NCBI GenBank assembly: GCA_029267415.1
Contig: JAJUIY010000004.1
Coordinates: forward strand, 1 to 37,657
Length of the DNA: 37,657 bases
Direction of reading: 5' to 3'
Source of the DNA: Alcaligenaceae bacterium
GTDB lineage: Bacteria; Pseudomonadota; Gammaproteobacteria; Burkholderiales; Burkholderiaceae_B
The notes under the pieces are model-generated. The model was not told where the DNA came from, did not search any database, and saw only the letters and a program-made list of their open reading frames with translations. Positions 13,916 through 26,051 of this stretch are shown here, in pieces. The position numbers were made by a program, and so were the translations under genes. How positions within the stretch are numbered: the first letter of the stretch is position 1; each line of letters starts with the position of its first letter.

Positions 13916-14368
13916 TCAAACGGGGCGGCGATGGTAAGCCAGGGCGATGTGGGCAAAAGCGATTTGCAGTTCTTGCGTGCCCCCCTGAAACACTACAGGG
14001 CGGCCTTTGCCGGTGAAGCAAACCAGCCGCTTCGACGCCACCATGGGAATAAATTTGGCAAACTGTATGTCGGACCATTGCACCGAGCGGCGGGTTACCC
14101 AGGTTTGGTGGATGCCTTCAGCGGTAATCGTGGTAACGGAAGTTTGCATGAACCGCGCGATGACCGCAAGGGCCAGAAAGGTGATGGTGACGCTGGCGGC
14201 GATGGCGGGCTGGACGGCCTGCCGGCTGGTGCCTATGGCCGTGTGCATTAGTTTGGCACCGATTATCAGCACTACACACCATGCCACCACTTTGACCCAG
14301 GCGGGCCACGCGGTACCGCGAATGGGCAAGGGTCCCAATGTTTGCATCAGGGTTTCGTGACGGTTCAT
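13916..14368 (-). CDS. small membrane protein of unknown function, possibly bacterial PH-domain-like
   Basis: C-terminal part of ORF 13916..14614 starting MNRHETLMQTLG. Two hydrophobic segments, then a soluble tail (TTITAEGIHQTWVTRRSVQWSDIQFAKF...). Confidence 0.55.
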   Translation of the reverse strand: MNRHETLMQTLGPLPIRGTAWPAWVKVVAWCVVLIIGAKLMHTAIGTSRQAVQPAIAASVTITFLALAVIARFMQTSVTTITAEGIHQTWVTRRSVQWSDIQFAKFIPMVASKRLVCFTGKGRPVVFQGGTQELQIAFAHIALAYHRRPV

Positions 14369-14423
14369 AGTAGGCAGTGCGGCGGGCAGTTGCAGGGCGA
14401 TTTTGTCATGGCGTCGGGCTGGC

Positions 14424-15326
14424 TTATTTGCGCGCCGCCAGGGCGTTGCCGGCACGGCTGTCAGCGCGTCGCCCAATTTCGGCAGAAATCCACTGCCCAG
14501 TGTCGACCACCGCATCCAGGTTGATGCCGGTGTCAATGCCCATGCCGTGCAACATATACAGCACGTCCTCGGTGGCGACGTTGCCGGTGGCCCCTTTGGC
14601 GTAGGGGCAGCCACCCAGCCCGGCCACCGAGCTGTGGAAAATGGAAATGCCGGCCTGCAATGATGCCAGAATATTGGCCAGCGCCTGCCCGTAGGTGTCG
14701 TGGAAGTGTCCGGAGATGGATGCGGGGTTGGCGATTTCAGTGACCGCTTTCATGACACGCTCGACCCGTTTTGGTGTACCGGTACCGATGGTGTCGGCAA
14801 TGTCGATCTCGTCGCAACCCAACGCCTGCATGCGGCGCACTACGTCCAGGACATTGTCCACCGGGGTAGGGCCGTCGTAGGGGCAGTCAAGCGCACAGCT
14901 GATGCTGCCGCGCAAGCGTAGGCCGGCCTGTTTGGCGGCCTCGGCCACAGGTTCGAAGCGGGCGATGGACTCTGCAATCGAGCAATTGATGTTTTTCTGC
15001 GAGAACGCTTCGCTGGCGGCACCAAAGATGACGACTTCGTCGACGCCGGCAGCAACGGCGGCGTCAAAGCCACGCATGTTGGGCGTCAGTGCCGAATAAA
15101 TAATGCCGGGGGCCCGCGTGATACCTGCCATGACTTCAGCGCCGTCTGCCATTTGGGGCACCCATTTTGGCGAGACAAACGAGGCCGCCTCGATATTAGG
15201 AAAACCGGCGGCCGACAGCCGGTTGATCAGTTCAACCTTGGTGGCGGCGGGAATCATGCTTTTCTCGTTCTGTAGACCGTCGCGGGGCGCGACTTCAACA
15301 ATTTTCACCTTGCTGGGCAGTGTCAT
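14424..15326 (-). CDS. mvaB: hydroxymethylglutaryl-CoA lyase
   Basis: VEVAPRDGLQNEK, SFVSPKWVPQMAD, SVAGLGGCPYAKGATGNVATEDVLYML. Confidence 0.92.
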   Translation of the reverse strand: MTLPSKVKIVEVAPRDGLQNEKSMIPAATKVELINRLSAAGFPNIEAASFVSPKWVPQMADGAEVMAGITRAPGIIYSALTPNMRGFDAAVAAGVDEVVIFGAASEAFSQKNINCSIAESIARFEPVAEAAKQAGLRLRGSISCALDCPYDGPTPVDNVLDVVRRMQALGCDEIDIADTIGTGTPKRVERVMKAVTEIANPASISGHFHDTYGQALANILASLQAGISIFHSSVAGLGGCPYAKGATGNVATEDVLYMLHGMGIDTGINLDAVVDTGQWISAEIGRRADSRAGNALAARK

Positions 15327-18522: not shown

Positions 18523-19166
18523 GCCGGCACGACTCCGGTGTGCCCGACAATGACGCCCGCGAAGCGTCCCGTATTACGTTAAGCCATTATTCACGCACGG
18601 CGCAGCGTTTTGCTGAAGGCACGTGGGACCATGACGTCAGCCAGAACATTGATGCCTTGTTGCGCCATATTTCGGCGCCGCCACCGCTGAATATTCTGGA
18701 TCTCGGCTGTGGGCCCGGGCGCGACTTGGTGGATTTCACCCAACGGGGGCACCGCGCCATTGGTGTGGACGGTTCGGCAGAGTTTGTGGCCATGGCTCGC
18801 GAAAATAGTGGATGCGAGGTCTGGCACCAGGATTTCCTGGATCTTGACCTGCCGTCCGGCTATTTTGATGGCGTATTTGCCAATGCGTCGTTGTTTCATG
18901 TGCCCAGTCGCCACGCTCCAGACGTGCTGACGCGCTTGTTCCATGCGCTGAAACCGGGTGGCGTCTTGTGTTGTTCGAACCCACGCGGCAATAACGAGGA
19001 GGGCTGGCAAGGTGAACGCTATGGCACTTGGTACGATTACCCCCGCTGGAGCCAATTAGTGCGCGCCGCGGGGTTTATTGAGCTGGAACATTATTATCGC
19101 CCCGACGGTCTGCCGCGCGAACAGCAGCCTTGGCTGGTCACCGTATGGCGCAAACCGGAACCTTGA
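18519..19166 (+). CDS. class I SAM-dependent methyltransferase
   Basis: Motif [32 protein letters not shown]. Overlaps the fmt stop by 4 nt. Confidence 0.82.
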
Positions 19167-19168
19167 CT

Positions 19169-20554
19169 ATGCCTGCCAAGCGTGTCGGCCGTGTTGCACA
19201 CCCTCCTGGGCCCAATCGCGTGGCCTTGTCTGCCAGCATCCTGGCTGCGGCGCAGTGCGTGCAGGGTGTGTTGGCGGGACGATCATTGTCCGATTGCCTG
19301 GCAACTATCGAGGTGGCATTGCGTCCGTCGGCCCAGGCCATCAGTTTTCACGTCATGCGTCGCTTGGGCTTTGCTCGTGCCGTCCAGGCCCGGTTGGTGG
19401 CGCGTCCACCGGGCGACAAGCTGGTCAACAGCTTGCTGTTGGTGGCCCTGGCGTTGCTGGATGCGGCCATCAAGGGCGAGCGTGAGCAGGCCGATGGCTC
19501 CGCCCCGGCCCGTGGTACGCCCGTGTACGCGGTACACACGGTGGTCGATCAGGCCGTCAATGCGTTGCCCCGCACGTCGCAGCGCTACCGGGGTTTGCTG
19601 AACGGCACACTGCGCAATTTCATTCGTCAGCACGATGCCCTGCAAGCGTACGTGGCCAACAATGACGAAGCCGTGTGGAACTACCCGCATTGGTGGATTT
19701 CTGCCGTGCGCAACGCATGGCCCCGGCAGTGGCAAGATATCTTGCACGCCGGCAATGTGCCAGGCCCTTTGGTGTTGCGCGTAAACCAGCGCCGGACAAC
19801 GATGCATGATGTGATCAACGCGTTTGACCAGGCCGGCATTGACGCCCGCGCATTGAATGGTCACGCGGTTTGGCTGCCGGAGCCGCGTCCGGTACAGGCC
19901 CTGCCTGGTTTCCAGCAAGGGTGGTGGTCGGTCCAAGACCTTTCTGCGCAGCGCGCCGGTGCATTGCTGCCCCTTGAGTCCGGCATGCGGGTGCTGGACG
20001 CATGCGCGGCGCCGGGAGGCAAAACGGCCCATCTGCTTGAGCAGGCTAACCTCCGGTTGCTTGCGCTTGATGCGGATGCCTCGCGCCTGCAGCGGGTGCA
20101 AGAAAACCTTGACCGGCTGGGCTTGAGTGGCTCGACGGTCGAGCTCTTGTGTGCAGATGCTGCAAAGCCCGAACAATGGTGGGATGGCGAGCCCTTCGAT
20201 GCCATTTTGGCCGATGTGCCATGTACTGCATCGGGCGTTGTACGTCGCAATCCCGATATCCGCTGGCTCCGCCGCAAGTCCGATGTATTGCAAACGGCGG
20301 CGTTGCAACGCCGCATCGTCGACGCACTGTGGGGTACATTACGACCGGGTGGCCATTTCCTGTATGTGACGTGTTCGATATTTCCACAAGAAGGTGAGCA
20401 ACAGGCGGCCGCGTTCGCGAAGCGTCACGGTGACGCCGTGCGCTTGCCTGCTCCTGGCCAAGTGTTACCCTTGCCCCATGCAGACGGTCCGGTCGGCGAC
20501 GGCTTCTTTTATGCGCTGTTCGCCAAGGCTAACCCCGGTCCTGAACCTTCTTGA
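19169..20554 (+). CDS. rsmB: 16S rRNA (cytosine967-C5)-methyltransferase
   Basis: N-terminal NusB-like domain; VLDACAAPGGKTAHLLE, ILADVPCTASGVVRRNPDIRW, YVTCSIFPQEGEQQ. Confidence 0.93.
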   Translation: MPAKRVGRVAHPPGPNRVALSASILAAAQCVQGVLAGRSLSDCLATIEVALRPSAQAISFHVMRRLGFARAVQARLVARPPGDKLVNSLLLVALALLDAAIKGEREQADGSAPARGTPVYAVHTVVDQAVNALPRTSQRYRGLLNGTLRNFIRQHDALQAYVANNDEAVWNYPHWWISAVRNAWPRQWQDILHAGNVPGPLVLRVNQRRTTMHDVINAFDQAGIDARALNGHAVWLPEPRPVQALPGFQQGWWSVQDLSAQRAGALLPLESGMRVLDACAAPGGKTAHLLEQANLRLLALDADASRLQRVQENLDRLGLSGSTVELLCADAAKPEQWWDGEPFDAILADVPCTASGVVRRNPDIRWLRRKSDVLQTAALQRRIVDALWGTLRPGGHFLYVTCSIFPQEGEQQAAAFAKRHGDAVRLPAPGQVLPLPHADGPVGDGFFYALFAKANPGPEPS

Positions 20555-21159
20555 TGGACAGCAAGCAATCTGGACAGGCGGCAATGCTCCGAATTCTGTT
20601 TTTCCTCGTCCTGTGTGTTTCGATGGCAGTCAGCGCTCCCGGCAGCCTGGCCGATAATGAAGCGCAGGTGCTGCGGGTCGATCCTGTGGCCCGCGACGGC
20701 CGGCTGTACATCGACGCCGATGTGCAGCTTCAGCTCGATGGCGACTTGCGTAATGTGGTGCAGCGCGGTGTGCCGCTTTATTTCACGGCTGACCTCGAAA
20801 TTGTGTCCAAGCGCTGGTGGTGGTTTGATAAAACCGTGACGAAAGAACAACTTACCTGGCGCATTGTGTACAACGCCCTGACACGTCAGTGGCGCGTGGG
20901 TACGGGGGAGTTGTCCCTGCCCGAGGCGTCATTGGACGATGCCTTGGCCCGGGTCACCAAAATTCGGGGCTGGGATGTGGCCGATCTGCGTGATTTCACT
21001 TATGACGACACCTATTATGGCCGGTTGCGGCTGCGCCTGGACACGTCCTTGCTGGCGCGGCCGTTTCAGGTTGATGCCCTAAACAGCAGTGCTTGGTCCT
21101 TAGCGACACCATGGAAAGATTTCTCTTTTTCGATCTCGGTCGGCGAGCCCAGGCCCTGA
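20551..21159 (+). CDS. DUF4390 domain-containing protein
   Basis: Signal peptide; VQRGVPLYFTADLEI...RWWWFDKTV and position between rsmB and the ntrY-like gene. Confidence 0.8.
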   Translation: MMDSKQSGQAAMLRILFFLVLCVSMAVSAPGSLADNEAQVLRVDPVARDGRLYIDADVQLQLDGDLRNVVQRGVPLYFTADLEIVSKRWWWFDKTVTKEQLTWRIVYNALTRQWRVGTGELSLPEASLDDALARVTKIRGWDVADLRDFTYDDTYYGRLRLRLDTSLLARPFQVDALNSSAWSLATPWKDFSFSISVGEPRP

Positions 21160-23486
21160 TACGCTGGGCTTCTCGTTTTGCGCTGGCGGTTGCCGCCGTC
21201 AGTGCTGTGGCGTTACTCGGCCTGCTGGTTTGGTCTACCGGCAACGCATCGCGTTACGCGCATTACTACGATCTGTTGCTGGTGCTCAACGGGATTCTGG
21301 CCGTTGCCCTGATCGTATGGGTCGGCGCCTTGTTTGGCCGTTTGGCACGCCAGGTCCGGCGCCGTCAATTTGGCGCGCGTCTGACCGCGCGGTTCGCTGT
21401 TTTTTTCACATTGATCGGTATCCTGCCGGGCGCACTTATCTATGTGCTGTCGGTCGAGTTCATGTCGCGCTCGATCGAGTCGTGGTTTAACGTTCGGGTC
21501 GATAGTGCCCTTGAGGCCGGGCTGAATCTGGGCCGGGCTGCGCTGGATTCGCAATTAAGTGAACTGACGGTCAGGGCGCGCGACATGAGCATGCAGCTTG
21601 AGCGCAGCAGCGAAACCGAAATGCCCTACCAGCTGACTCGACTGCGCGAGGCCAAGGACGTGGCCGAGGCCATGGTGTTTACCTCCAACGGACGATTGGT
21701 GGCGTTTTCATCCTCGGAATTTGGCGGTTTGCTGCCCGACTTGCCGCCGCCGAACGTCATGAACCAACTGCGTGTGGCCAGCGCCTATAGTGCGGCCGAA
21801 GCCGACGACTTTCAGGATGGTGCATCCCCGGGCCGCGGGCTTTTCTTGCGGGTGGTGTTGCCGATCAATCCCGCCGACCCGCTGGCTGCCATGCTTGGTA
21901 AATCGTCTGATGCGCGCTGGCTGCAGGTGATCCAGCCCGTGCCCGATTCGATCGCGCACAACGCCAACCAGGTGCAGCAAGGCTTTCGCGACTATCAAGA
22001 GCTGGCGCTCTCGCGGCTGGGCCTGCGCAAACTGTATGGCATTACGCTGACGCTGGCGTTGATTCTTGCGGTTTTTGCGGCCGTGGTGGTGGCGCTGGCC
22101 GTCTCACGCCGGTTGGTGCGCCCACTACTCGCGCTGGCTGCCGGTACGCAGGCGGTGGGGGTTGGTGATTACCGGCCCTTGCCGGAACCTCCCGTGAAAG
22201 ATGAAATCGGGCAGCTGACACGCTCTTTCAATGCCATGACCCGCCAGCTGGACGAAGCGCGCCGCATGGTCGAGTCCAACCGGCACGAACTGGAGCGTTC
22301 CAATATTTATCTGGAATCGGTGCTCAGCCATCTTTCGTCGGGCGTGCTGGTGTTTGATGAAAGCTTTCGGGTAACCATGTTCAACCAAGGGGCGCAGTCG
22401 ATTCTGAATGTCGATTTGCGTATGGTAAAAGGGCGTCCCCTTGAAACCGTCGAGGGGGCGGTGGCCCTTGCCCAACGGATTCGTGAATCGTTTGCCGAGC
22501 ACATGGCCGTGGGCTCTGAGCGGCCATACTGGCAGCAGCAGTTTGAGCTCGAACGCGAGCCGGCTTCCGATAATGAATCCAAACGCCATATCGTAACCTT
22601 GCTGGCACGCGGTACGCATTTGCAGGTGGACGGGCGGGGCAACGGTTATCTGGTCGTGTTTGACGACATCAGTGAAGTGATTTCTGCCAACCGCGCCGTG
22701 GCCTGGGGTGAAGTGGCACGTCGGCTTGCCCACGAGATCAAGAACCCGCTCACACCAATTCAACTGTCCGCTGAACGGCTGTCCATGAAGCTGGCGCCGC
22801 GGTTGGATGAGAAGGATGCGGCTATGCTCGAACGTGCGACCACCACCATCGTGAACCAGGTGGCGTCCCTCAAGCAGATGGTGGACGATTTCCGCGAGTA
22901 CGCCCGTACACCGCCAGCACAAATGCAGCGTGTCAATATCAATGAGCTGGTGTCCGATGTGCTCTTGTTGTACGGCTGGGATCCGGTGGATGGCATGGTG
23001 CATAGTCGCGAGCATGCTGTGCACCTTCATGTGTCATTGGACGAATCTATTCCATGGGTGCAGGGGGATCCCACGCAGTTGCGCCAGGTGATTCATAATT
23101 TGCTCGTTAACGCGTGCGACGCCGCCGAGCGGGAAAACCCTGACGACGGAGCACAAGTGTGGGTCACCACTACCTTGACGTCGTCCGGGGGCAATGGCGA
23201 CGGCAACCAGCTTGCCGCACGCCTGACAGTATCGGATAATGGGTCGGGGTTTGCGCCACAGGTACTGACCCGGGTTTTCGAGCCCTATGTCACGACCAAG
23301 TCGACCGGAACGGGGCTTGGGCTTGCTATAGTCAAAAAATTGTTGAAGAACACGACGGGCGCATCGATGTGGCAAATCGCCGCGATGGCGGCGCACGGGT
23401 TTCAATTCTCCTTACCCGGCTTGAACCCGCCACCAGCAACACCGATGCCGTGCCGGCAAGCGGTAACAGGCAAGAACTATAAGTGA
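21111..23486 (+). CDS. NtrY-like sensor histidine kinase, apparent frameshift near the 3' end (A6 at 23334-23339; expected ending lies in -1 frame, stop 23480-23482)
   Basis: TM segments, HAMP, PAS, HisKA (RRLAHEIKNPLTPIQLSAERL), HATPase (NLLVNACDAAE, DNGSGFAP, TGTGLGLAIVKK). Start uncertain; ORF track starts at 21093. Confidence 0.9.
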   Translation: MERFLFFDLGRRAQALIRWASRFALAVAAVSAVALLGLLVWSTGNASRYAHYYDLLLVLNGILAVALIVWVGALFGRLARQVRRRQFGARLTARFAVFFTLIGILPGALIYVLSVEFMSRSIESWFNVRVDSALEAGLNLGRAALDSQLSELTVRARDMSMQLERSSETEMPYQLTRLREAKDVAEAMVFTSNGRLVAFSSSEFGGLLPDLPPPNVMNQLRVASAYSAAEADDFQDGASPGRGLFLRVVLPINPADPLAAMLGKSSDARWLQVIQPVPDSIAHNANQVQQGFRDYQELALSRLGLRKLYGITLTLALILAVFAAVVVALAVSRRLVRPLLALAAGTQAVGVGDYRPLPEPPVKDEIGQLTRSFNAMTRQLDEARRMVESNRHELERSNIYLESVLSHLSSGVLVFDESFRVTMFNQGAQSILNVDLRMVKGRPLETVEGAVALAQRIRESFAEHMAVGSERPYWQQQFELEREPASDNESKRHIVTLLARGTHLQVDGRGNGYLVVFDDISEVISANRAVAWGEVARRLAHEIKNPLTPIQLSAERLSMKLAPRLDEKDAAMLERATTTIVNQVASLKQMVDDFREYARTPPAQMQRVNINELVSDVLLLYGWDPVDGMVHSREHAVHLHVSLDESIPWVQGDPTQLRQVIHNLLVNACDAAERENPDDGAQVWVTTTLTSSGGNGDGNQLAARLTVSDNGSGFAPQVLTRVFEPYVTTKSTGTGLGLAIVKKLLKNTTGASMWQIAAMAAHGFQFSLPGLNPPPATPMPCRQAVTGKNYK

Positions 23487-23492
23487 GGCTAT

Positions 23493-24212
23493 ATGGCCAG
23501 AATTCTGGTTGTCGATGATGAAATTGGTATTCGCGAACTTTTATCGGAAATCCTGTATGACGAAGGGCATACGATAGAACTCGCAGAAAACGCTGCGCAA
23601 GCGCGCGCTGCCCGGTTGCGCTCGCGGCCCGATCTGGTGTTGCTGGATATCTGGATGCCCGACACCGACGGGGTCAGTTTGCTGAAAGAATGGAGCTCGC
23701 AGGGGTTGCTGGATATGCCGGTCATCATGATGAGCGGGCATGCCACGGTCGACACCGCCGTGGAAGCCACACGCATTGGCGCCGTCGATTTCCTGGAAAA
23801 ACCAATCACATTGCAAAAGCTGCTTAAAGCGGTCGAGTCAGGCTTGGCACGACCAGTGGTGTCGCCCGCCATGCTTGCCGCTGCCCGTGGCGAGCCTCTG
23901 GTTACCACCCCCAGCCACGAGACACCGCGCCCGGCGCCGGCGGCAGCGCCGTCCGCACCGGCACCCAAGGCGGATACCAATGCGCCGGCTGCCGAGAACG
24001 ACGGCTCCATGGTGGGCGGTATATCCCTTGACCAGCCTTTGCGTGAAGCACGCGACGAATTCGAACGGGTGTATTTTGAATATCACCTGGCGCGCGAAAA
24101 CTACAGCATGACACGCGTTTCGGAACGTACCGGGCTGGAACGCACGCATCTGTACCGAAAACTTAAACAGTTGGGTATTGATGCCTCGGCCCGACGCCGT
24201 AACCAGCGCTAA
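23493..24212 (+). CDS. NtrX-like response regulator, receiver plus Fis-type HTH, no AAA+ domain
   Basis: Receiver ILVVDDEIGIRELL, LVLLDIWMPDTDG, EKPITL; Pro/Ala-rich linker; C-terminal YSMTRVSERTGLERTHLYRKLKQLGID. Confidence 0.88.
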   Translation: MARILVVDDEIGIRELLSEILYDEGHTIELAENAAQARAARLRSRPDLVLLDIWMPDTDGVSLLKEWSSQGLLDMPVIMMSGHATVDTAVEATRIGAVDFLEKPITLQKLLKAVESGLARPVVSPAMLAAARGEPLVTTPSHETPRPAPAAAPSAPAPKADTNAPAAENDGSMVGGISLDQPLREARDEFERVYFEYHLARENYSMTRVSERTGLERTHLYRKLKQLGIDASARRRNQR

Positions 24213-24251: not shown

Positions 24252-25199
24252 CTAATTAGAGCCCGCGGTGCCCGATGACGACGGGGGTGTGCCGCCGCGG
24301 TTGGCTCGGCCAATACTGCTGATCGAAATTTTTGTTTCACCGGATGCCGTGCGGTGTGCTGCCGCGCGCCAGGCATGGCCGTACGCCACTTCAACTGTAA
24401 GGTGTATGGTGCCGTCCATATGACGCTGCCGTTCAAGGCTGTCCAGCAGACGTTGCCGCCAAGCACGCCCAGGCAACCCGGTACGCCGATCCATGCTGGG
24501 GTTGCCACCCAGCAGGCGTATGTCTTGTAGTAATTTTTCAGCCGACCGATAGGTAAGAGTAATGACTTCCTGATCCATTACGGGATCCTGGAAGCCATGT
24601 TCAAGCAGCAAGTCGCCGTAATCGTGCATATCCACAAACTGCGGAATGTCGGTGTCCAACTGGGCGTCGCGAATGGCCTGGCGCAGTTCGGCCAGCGAAC
24701 CGGGCCCAAGGCTTGAAAACATGGCCAGCATACCGGGGCGAAGCAGGCGGCGCCACTCCGCAATGACGCGGTGGGGTTCCGGGTGCCAGTGCAGCGCCAT
24801 GTTTGACCACACCAAGTCAATACTTTCGGCATCCAGGCCCGTGGTGGCCATGTCGGCCAGCACAAAGTTGACCGGCGGAGTGGGCTTGTTGCGCAGACGC
24901 TGCCATAGGCCCGGCCGGGCCGCATACCGTTGGCGGGCGGTTTCCAGCAGGGGAGCGCAGAAGTCGAGCCCGATGTAGTCCAGGTCTGGATATTGGGCGC
25001 GAAGCGGCTCCAGTGCGTGGGCGTTGCCGCAGCCCGCATCCAGAATGGCGCCTGGCTGAATGCGGATGTAGCTGAGCCGTTGCAACATACGCTGGGCAAT
25101 TTCGCCATATAAGAACTGTGCCGGGTCCAGGGGGTTGCGCCGTGCAAATTGCTGCATGACGTGGTCTGGATTAAGGCGTAGCGGGGCAAGCTGGGACAT
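24252..25199 (-). CDS. BioC-like class I SAM-dependent methyltransferase
   Basis: ILDAGCGNAHALEPLRAQYPDLDYIGLDF; WSNMALHWHPEPHRVIAEWRRLLRPGML is BioC-like. Start MSQLAPLRLNP; ORF extends to 25280. Confidence 0.8.
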   Translation of the reverse strand: MSQLAPLRLNPDHVMQQFARRNPLDPAQFLYGEIAQRMLQRLSYIRIQPGAILDAGCGNAHALEPLRAQYPDLDYIGLDFCAPLLETARQRYAARPGLWQRLRNKPTPPVNFVLADMATTGLDAESIDLVWSNMALHWHPEPHRVIAEWRRLLRPGMLAMFSSLGPGSLAELRQAIRDAQLDTDIPQFVDMHDYGDLLLEHGFQDPVMDQEVITLTYRSAEKLLQDIRLLGGNPSMDRRTGLPGRAWRQRLLDSLERQRHMDGTIHLTVEVAYGHAWRAAAHRTASGETKISISSIGRANRGGTPPSSSGTAGSN

Positions 25200-25271
25200 A
25201 AACGTCTGGGTGGCTGTGGCGCAATAGCGCGTGCTGTGATGAGATGCAGATTTAACTGCAAGGATTCCATT

Positions 25272-26051
25272 ATGGCCCATCTGCGGACGTTGTGCGAATT
25301 AAAGCGTTGGCGGATGCGGCGCGTAGAAGGGCCAGTCGGCGTGCCGCCCCCGACGCCATGGCGAGGCCTACTGCCCATGCCCTGCGCGTTGTGTGGAATG
25401 ACCACACGCGGAGCGGGGCTGTGCCGCCTATGTCACGACATGGTGCAGGGCAAGCAGGGAAACGGGGTGCGCTGCGCACGCTGCGCGTTGGTACTGCACC
25501 CGCAAGAGACATGCCCGGACTGCCTCGTCACGCTTGGCTCGTTCGATCGCGTGATTGCCGCGTTTGACTACGATGCCCCTGCCAGCTTGCTTATACATCG
25601 GCTCAAGGCGCAGCGCCGCTTCACCGACGTCCCCTTGCTGACCAACTTGCTGGCCAATGCGATCGCTTCGGCCTGGCCGGATTTACCGGTAAATTTGTGG
25701 CTGGTGCCGGTGCCCGCCAGCGCGCGCTCAATCCGCCAACGTGGGTTCAACCCCGCGGCCGACGTGGCGCGTTTGCTGGCGCGTCGTCTGAAGATGGCTT
25801 ACCGTCCGTCGTTGGTGCGGCGGGTTACCGACGGCGTCAAGCAGGCCACGTTGGGGCGCGAGGCCCGGTTGATGGCCACCGCGCGCTTGTACCACCTTGC
25901 GGGCAACGTGCAGGGGGCGCACATTGCGATCGTTGACGATGTGCTGACCACAGGTAGTACTATGCACAGCATTGCACGAATGTTAAAACGTGGCGGCGCG
26001 GCCTCGGTGCACGGGCTTGTGCTGGCCCGCACCCAGCGCCGCCATGGCTGA
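25272..26051 (+). CDS. comF: ComF family phosphoribosyltransferase-like protein
   Basis: Zn-binding CALCG...CRLCHDM...CARCAL...CPDC; RQRGFNPAADVARLLARR; PRPP loop VAIVDDVLTTGSTM-type (IAIVDDVLTTGSTM). Confidence 0.87.
   Translation: MAHLRTLCELKRWRMRRVEGPVGVPPPTPWRGLLPMPCALCGMTTRGAGLCRLCHDMVQGKQGNGVRCARCALVLHPQETCPDCLVTLGSFDRVIAAFDYDAPASLLIHRLKAQRRFTDVPLLTNLLANAIASAWPDLPVNLWLVPVPASARSIRQRGFNPAADVARLLARRLKMAYRPSLVRRVTDGVKQATLGREARLMATARLYHLAGNVQGAHIAIVDDVLTTGSTMHSIARMLKRGGAASVHGLVLARTQRRHG

Follow-up and report, generated by a model that had tools for sequence, protein, structure and literature searches.

The window, by which we mean the whole stretch of 37,657 nucleotides of Alcaligenaceae DNA that was analysed, holds an ntrY-like sensor kinase gene that leaves the kinase reading frame at a short run of adenines close to its 3' end. 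The question is whether this shift is a recoding signal or a phase-variable switch, whether it is a mutation that inactivates the kinase, or whether it is an error in the assembly. We consider it highly probable (about 0.94) that ntrY/plrS had an ancestral tract of A7 from which a single A has been lost, in an isolated event that is not programmed: either a consensus error in the draft assembly, or a slipped-strand deletion that the sampled strain underwent recently.

The kinase gene and its two reading frames

The features of the locus, with the basis for each, are the following.

19130-20554, plus strand: rsmB (NCBIfam NF008149, above the cut-off)
20551-21159, plus strand: DUF4390 protein, homologue of PlrP (Pfam PF14334)
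21093-23486, plus strand: ntrY/plrS-like sensor histidine kinase ORF in the annotated frame, with an aberrant tail of 48 amino acids (Pfam HAMP, HisKA and HATPase_c)
23324-23332, plus strand: extended -10-like element TGCTATAGT, candidate core of an internal ntrX/plrR promoter (motif in 25+ loci, rare-codon hotspot, Bordetella promoter)
23331-23342, plus strand: GTC AAA AAA TTG, place of the lost A (in frame in every relative read; seven adenines in the congener, L035/L118)
23339-23482, plus strand: -1 frame tail, canonical HATPase_c end (relatives, codon alignment with the congener, reference proteins)
23340-23486, plus strand: out-of-frame tail LLKNTTG...KNYK (found in no relative)
23493-24212, plus strand: ntrX/plrR-like response regulator with receiver and Fis-type HTH, without AAA+ domain, intact (domain search)

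The A run (A6) lies at 23334-23339. In the annotated (0) frame the kinase ORF closes with LLKNTTGASMWQ...KNYK and the stop TGA at 23484-23486, and its last 48 amino acids are garbled and do not resemble a kinase. Read from 23339, the -1 frame gives IVEEHDGRIDVANRRDGGARVSILLTRLEPATSNTDAVPASGNRQEL with the stop TAA at 23480-23482, and it is this product that contains the canonical HATPase_c ending (IVEEHDGRIDVANRRDGGARVSILLTRL); ntrX starts at 23493. The sequence, the coordinates, both frames and both stops are as given in the original prediction, and its claim that the -1 frame is the real end of the kinase is backed from several sides. When the tail is compared with two independent reference proteins it aligns in the -1 frame only, with scores of 118 and 90, while no other frame scores above 16, and the Pfam match to HATPase_c ends at profile position 93 of 111 in the window versus 107 of 111 in an intact relative. 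The codon alignment with the congener, given below, agrees.

Both domains and position place the gene in the NtrY/PlrS family. HAMP, HisKA and HATPase_c are all recognised by Pfam, the last of them cut at 93/111 in the annotated frame, and the gene stands 3' to rsmB and the DUF4390 gene and 5' to an NtrX without AAA+. No single frame holds an intact C-terminal end of the ATPase domain; as it stands in the assembly, the gene belongs to the family but carries a frameshift. The PlrSR system of Bordetella (PMC13001219) is alike in having a HAMP-PAS-HisKA-HATPase_c kinase and the gene order rsmB, plrP (DUF4390), plrS, plrR, and an NtrX without the AAA+ domain, which is the betaproteobacterial type, is shared by the window and PlrSR. 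The two differ in that the last ~48 codons of the kinase are out of frame in the window, and in the gene beyond ntrX, which is trkAH in Bordetella and a BioC-like methyltransferase here. The latter lies on the opposite strand (24252-25280) and scores 155 bits, where the curated cut-off is 185. PlrP, whose homologue is found at 20551-21159, has been proposed as a third, periplasmic component of PlrSR.

The adenine run in related genomes

We looked for ntrY in 61 related genomes and in the GTDB contig collection and read the site in 116 loci of the gene (53 distinct ones at 88% protein identity); two loci, L034 and L040, were left out as the text pattern for the site did not fit them. In all 116 the frame of the G2 box runs on without a shift into a kinase ending of the kind seen in the window's -1 frame, I[IV][ED]EH or a close variant of it. 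Orthologues ending in LLKNTTG had been named beforehand as what would speak against a frameshift, and this tail is absent from every one of the loci read. A comparison of the length of the A run had also been proposed. Seven adenines stand at the same place in several other genera and in the same-genus genome G001 (contig DAHVSI010000054.1, a MAG labelled Castellaniella sp.), which is the closest relative available; ntrY was found in no further genome of the genus, and the search of a second congener genome, G002, gave no match. The window, with its six, is therefore short of one A relative to its relatives, just as the original prediction had it.

The tail itself was compared codon by codon with that of the NtrY of the congener. 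Of the 28 codons with which the -1 tail begins, 10 are identical, 14 synonymous and 4 non-synonymous, and 20 of the 34 nucleotide changes in the first 34 codons fall at third codon positions. By this pattern the -1 frame still shows purifying selection against the congener, and the tail either remains under selection as the end of a kinase or was so until a very short time ago, which is what is expected if the loss of the base is an error or very recent. The equivalent of the 0 frame is open as far in 18 of 119 relatives, and in the congener it meets a stop after 24 codons. We regard the fact that it stays open to nearly the same point in the window as mildly unusual and not meaningful, and the 0-frame tail does not represent a conserved product.

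Two forms of the kinase would be made if the A6 run were a site of programmed -1 ribosomal frameshifting or of transcriptional slippage. An in-frame A_AAA tetramer is present, and slippage by -1 at GTC AAA AAA would lead into the canonical kinase sequence, but C_AAA_AAA fails the X_XXZ_ZZN heptamer rule, and the weak tetramer that is left is of a kind described as less efficient (PMC4066793). Inspection of the sequence just upstream of the A run showed no Shine-Dalgarno-like element, and no stimulatory hairpin was found downstream, where the RNA folds no better than shuffled sequences (z of -0.9, -0.1 and +0.4). With the shift common to 0 of the 116 relatives, no canonical heptamer, no stimulators and an alternative tail without conservation, recoding is unsupported and we hold it to be very unlikely. 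The A-rich slip site and the -1 direction are shared with the A_AAA_AAG-type sites of dnaX and IS elements (PMC4066793), whereas the heptamer rule, the stimulators and the conservation of such sites are missing in the window. The singleton frameshifts of the GeneTack survey (PMC3711429) are alike in being confined to one genome, in having intact homologues and in that the shift is backed by protein similarity and Pfam, and no difference from them is apparent. It is even more doubtful that the species truly has A6 and makes a full-length NtrY by low-level -1 slippage, with the dose of the kinase uncoupled from NtrX; if that were true, NtrX would be served by a promoter of its own beginning at the same spot as the A run.

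The A tract could also be thought of as a contingency locus for phase variation, and the recurrence of A7 at the site in several genera would fit this. In many relatives, however, the run is broken by AAG or CGC codons, and relatives that are out of phase number 0 among the 116 read. Seven is short for a contingency tract, and A/T runs of 7 occur at about 93 per Mb in the genome, so the tract is not exceptional; we find phase variation highly improbable. Among the causes first proposed for the shift, a sequencing or assembly error and an inactivating mutation thus stand, while programmed -1 frameshifting, regulated transcriptional slippage and phase variation have gained no support.

Assembly error or real deletion

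The assembly is a draft of 2.50 Mb in 304 contigs, 93% complete, and it probably is a metagenome bin; the frameshift site is situated mid-contig. We tested for indels in 408 kb (the window and 52 contigs); the references were ORFs of two complete genomes in the same family, each of which was used in part. The matched coding DNA came to 143.5 kb, and in it only the frameshift in ntrY was upheld, which was detected independently with both references; the event is thus isolated. Other candidates were rejected. Two in L160 are upstream extensions of stop-to-stop ORFs, and those on the minus strand of the window were judged to be shadow ORFs: the ORF at 13916-14614 has no Pfam match and the HMGL-like ORF that overlaps it is intact, and the others are antisense to rsmB, fmt and their neighbours. 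Candidates of low identity were set aside in L147 (second piece 24% identical), L164 (23%) and L168 (weak score). A plasmid search gave no match.

An isolated event is about as well explained by a single rare error of assembly as by a single real mutation; the clean sample and the mid-contig site speak somewhat against a generally error-prone assembly, not against a single error. If the base was lost in sequencing or assembly, the organism truly has A7 and its kinase is intact. To this we give close to an even chance, given a draft in so many contigs and of probable metagenomic origin, the A7 state of the congener and a tail that is well preserved in the -1 frame, and set against these that no further indel was upheld in the coding DNA tested, so that the assembly is not generally indel-prone. 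A real and recent slipped-strand deletion, by which NtrY was inactivated in the strain, has a chance slightly below even. The homopolymer of seven in the congener and the otherwise clean assembly are consistent with it, and in Bordetella plrS is dispensable in vitro, where Delta-plrS strains grow, and plrR has its own promoter (PMC13001219), so such a loss would be tolerable; on the other hand, the rest of the gene is without decay, and the gene is intact in the congener.

If the deletion is real, the kinase would retain its sensor, HAMP, PAS and HisKA parts and the N-G1-F-G2 motifs of the ATP site, and it would probably be inactive because the C-terminal end of the ATPase domain would be gone. 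The window lacks one base relative to its relatives and its ntrX is intact, and expression of ntrX probably continues from a promoter of its own inside the 3' end of ntrY. Singleton frameshifts are generally put down to recent indels or sequencing errors (GeneTack survey, PMC3711429). For now, the gene should be marked as frameshifted, and its annotated C-terminus should be disregarded. Flagging it is useful to keep the tail from being annotated as a new kinase C-terminus, or the shift as a recoding event; otherwise the deletion is of little importance.

A candidate internal promoter of ntrX

Directly 5' of the A run, inside the G2 box of ntrY, lies TTGCTATAGTC, which holds the extended -10-like element TGCTATAGT, and more than 25 loci, spread over several genera, have the pattern TGCTATAGTNAANAA there. 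It uses ATA, a rare Ile codon, which stands at the G2-box column in 16 of 52 cases versus 12.5% overall, a count for which the individual codons were chosen after viewing the alignment. By the rare-codon score, which is a less biased test, the G2 box is one of two hotspots in the gene, with a z of about 4; the second is the extreme 3' end, the expected place of the ribosome-binding site of ntrX. A plrR/ntrX promoter in the 3' end of plrS has been shown by reporter fusions in B. bronchiseptica (PMC13001219), and we think that the rare-codon patch with TGCTATAGT probably forms the core of that promoter.

The ntrY genes of Bordetella and Achromobacter (e.g. L025, L068 and L098) have another conserved rare-codon string there, TTAGGATTGGCAAT / ACTGGGTTAGGATTGGCAAT, and no clear -10 element can be read in ACTGGGTTAGGATTGGCAAT. 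Because two different, lineage-specific motifs occupy the place, pairwise synonymous-codon identity did not reveal the patch, and the site is missing from the hits of a consensus promoter scan because the scan demands a -35 hexamer.

The conserved sequence upstream of the A run is the more useful by-product of the analysis, as a base-level candidate for the ntrX/plrR promoter reported in Bordetella, and it suggests that this internal promoter is common in the Alcaligenaceae.
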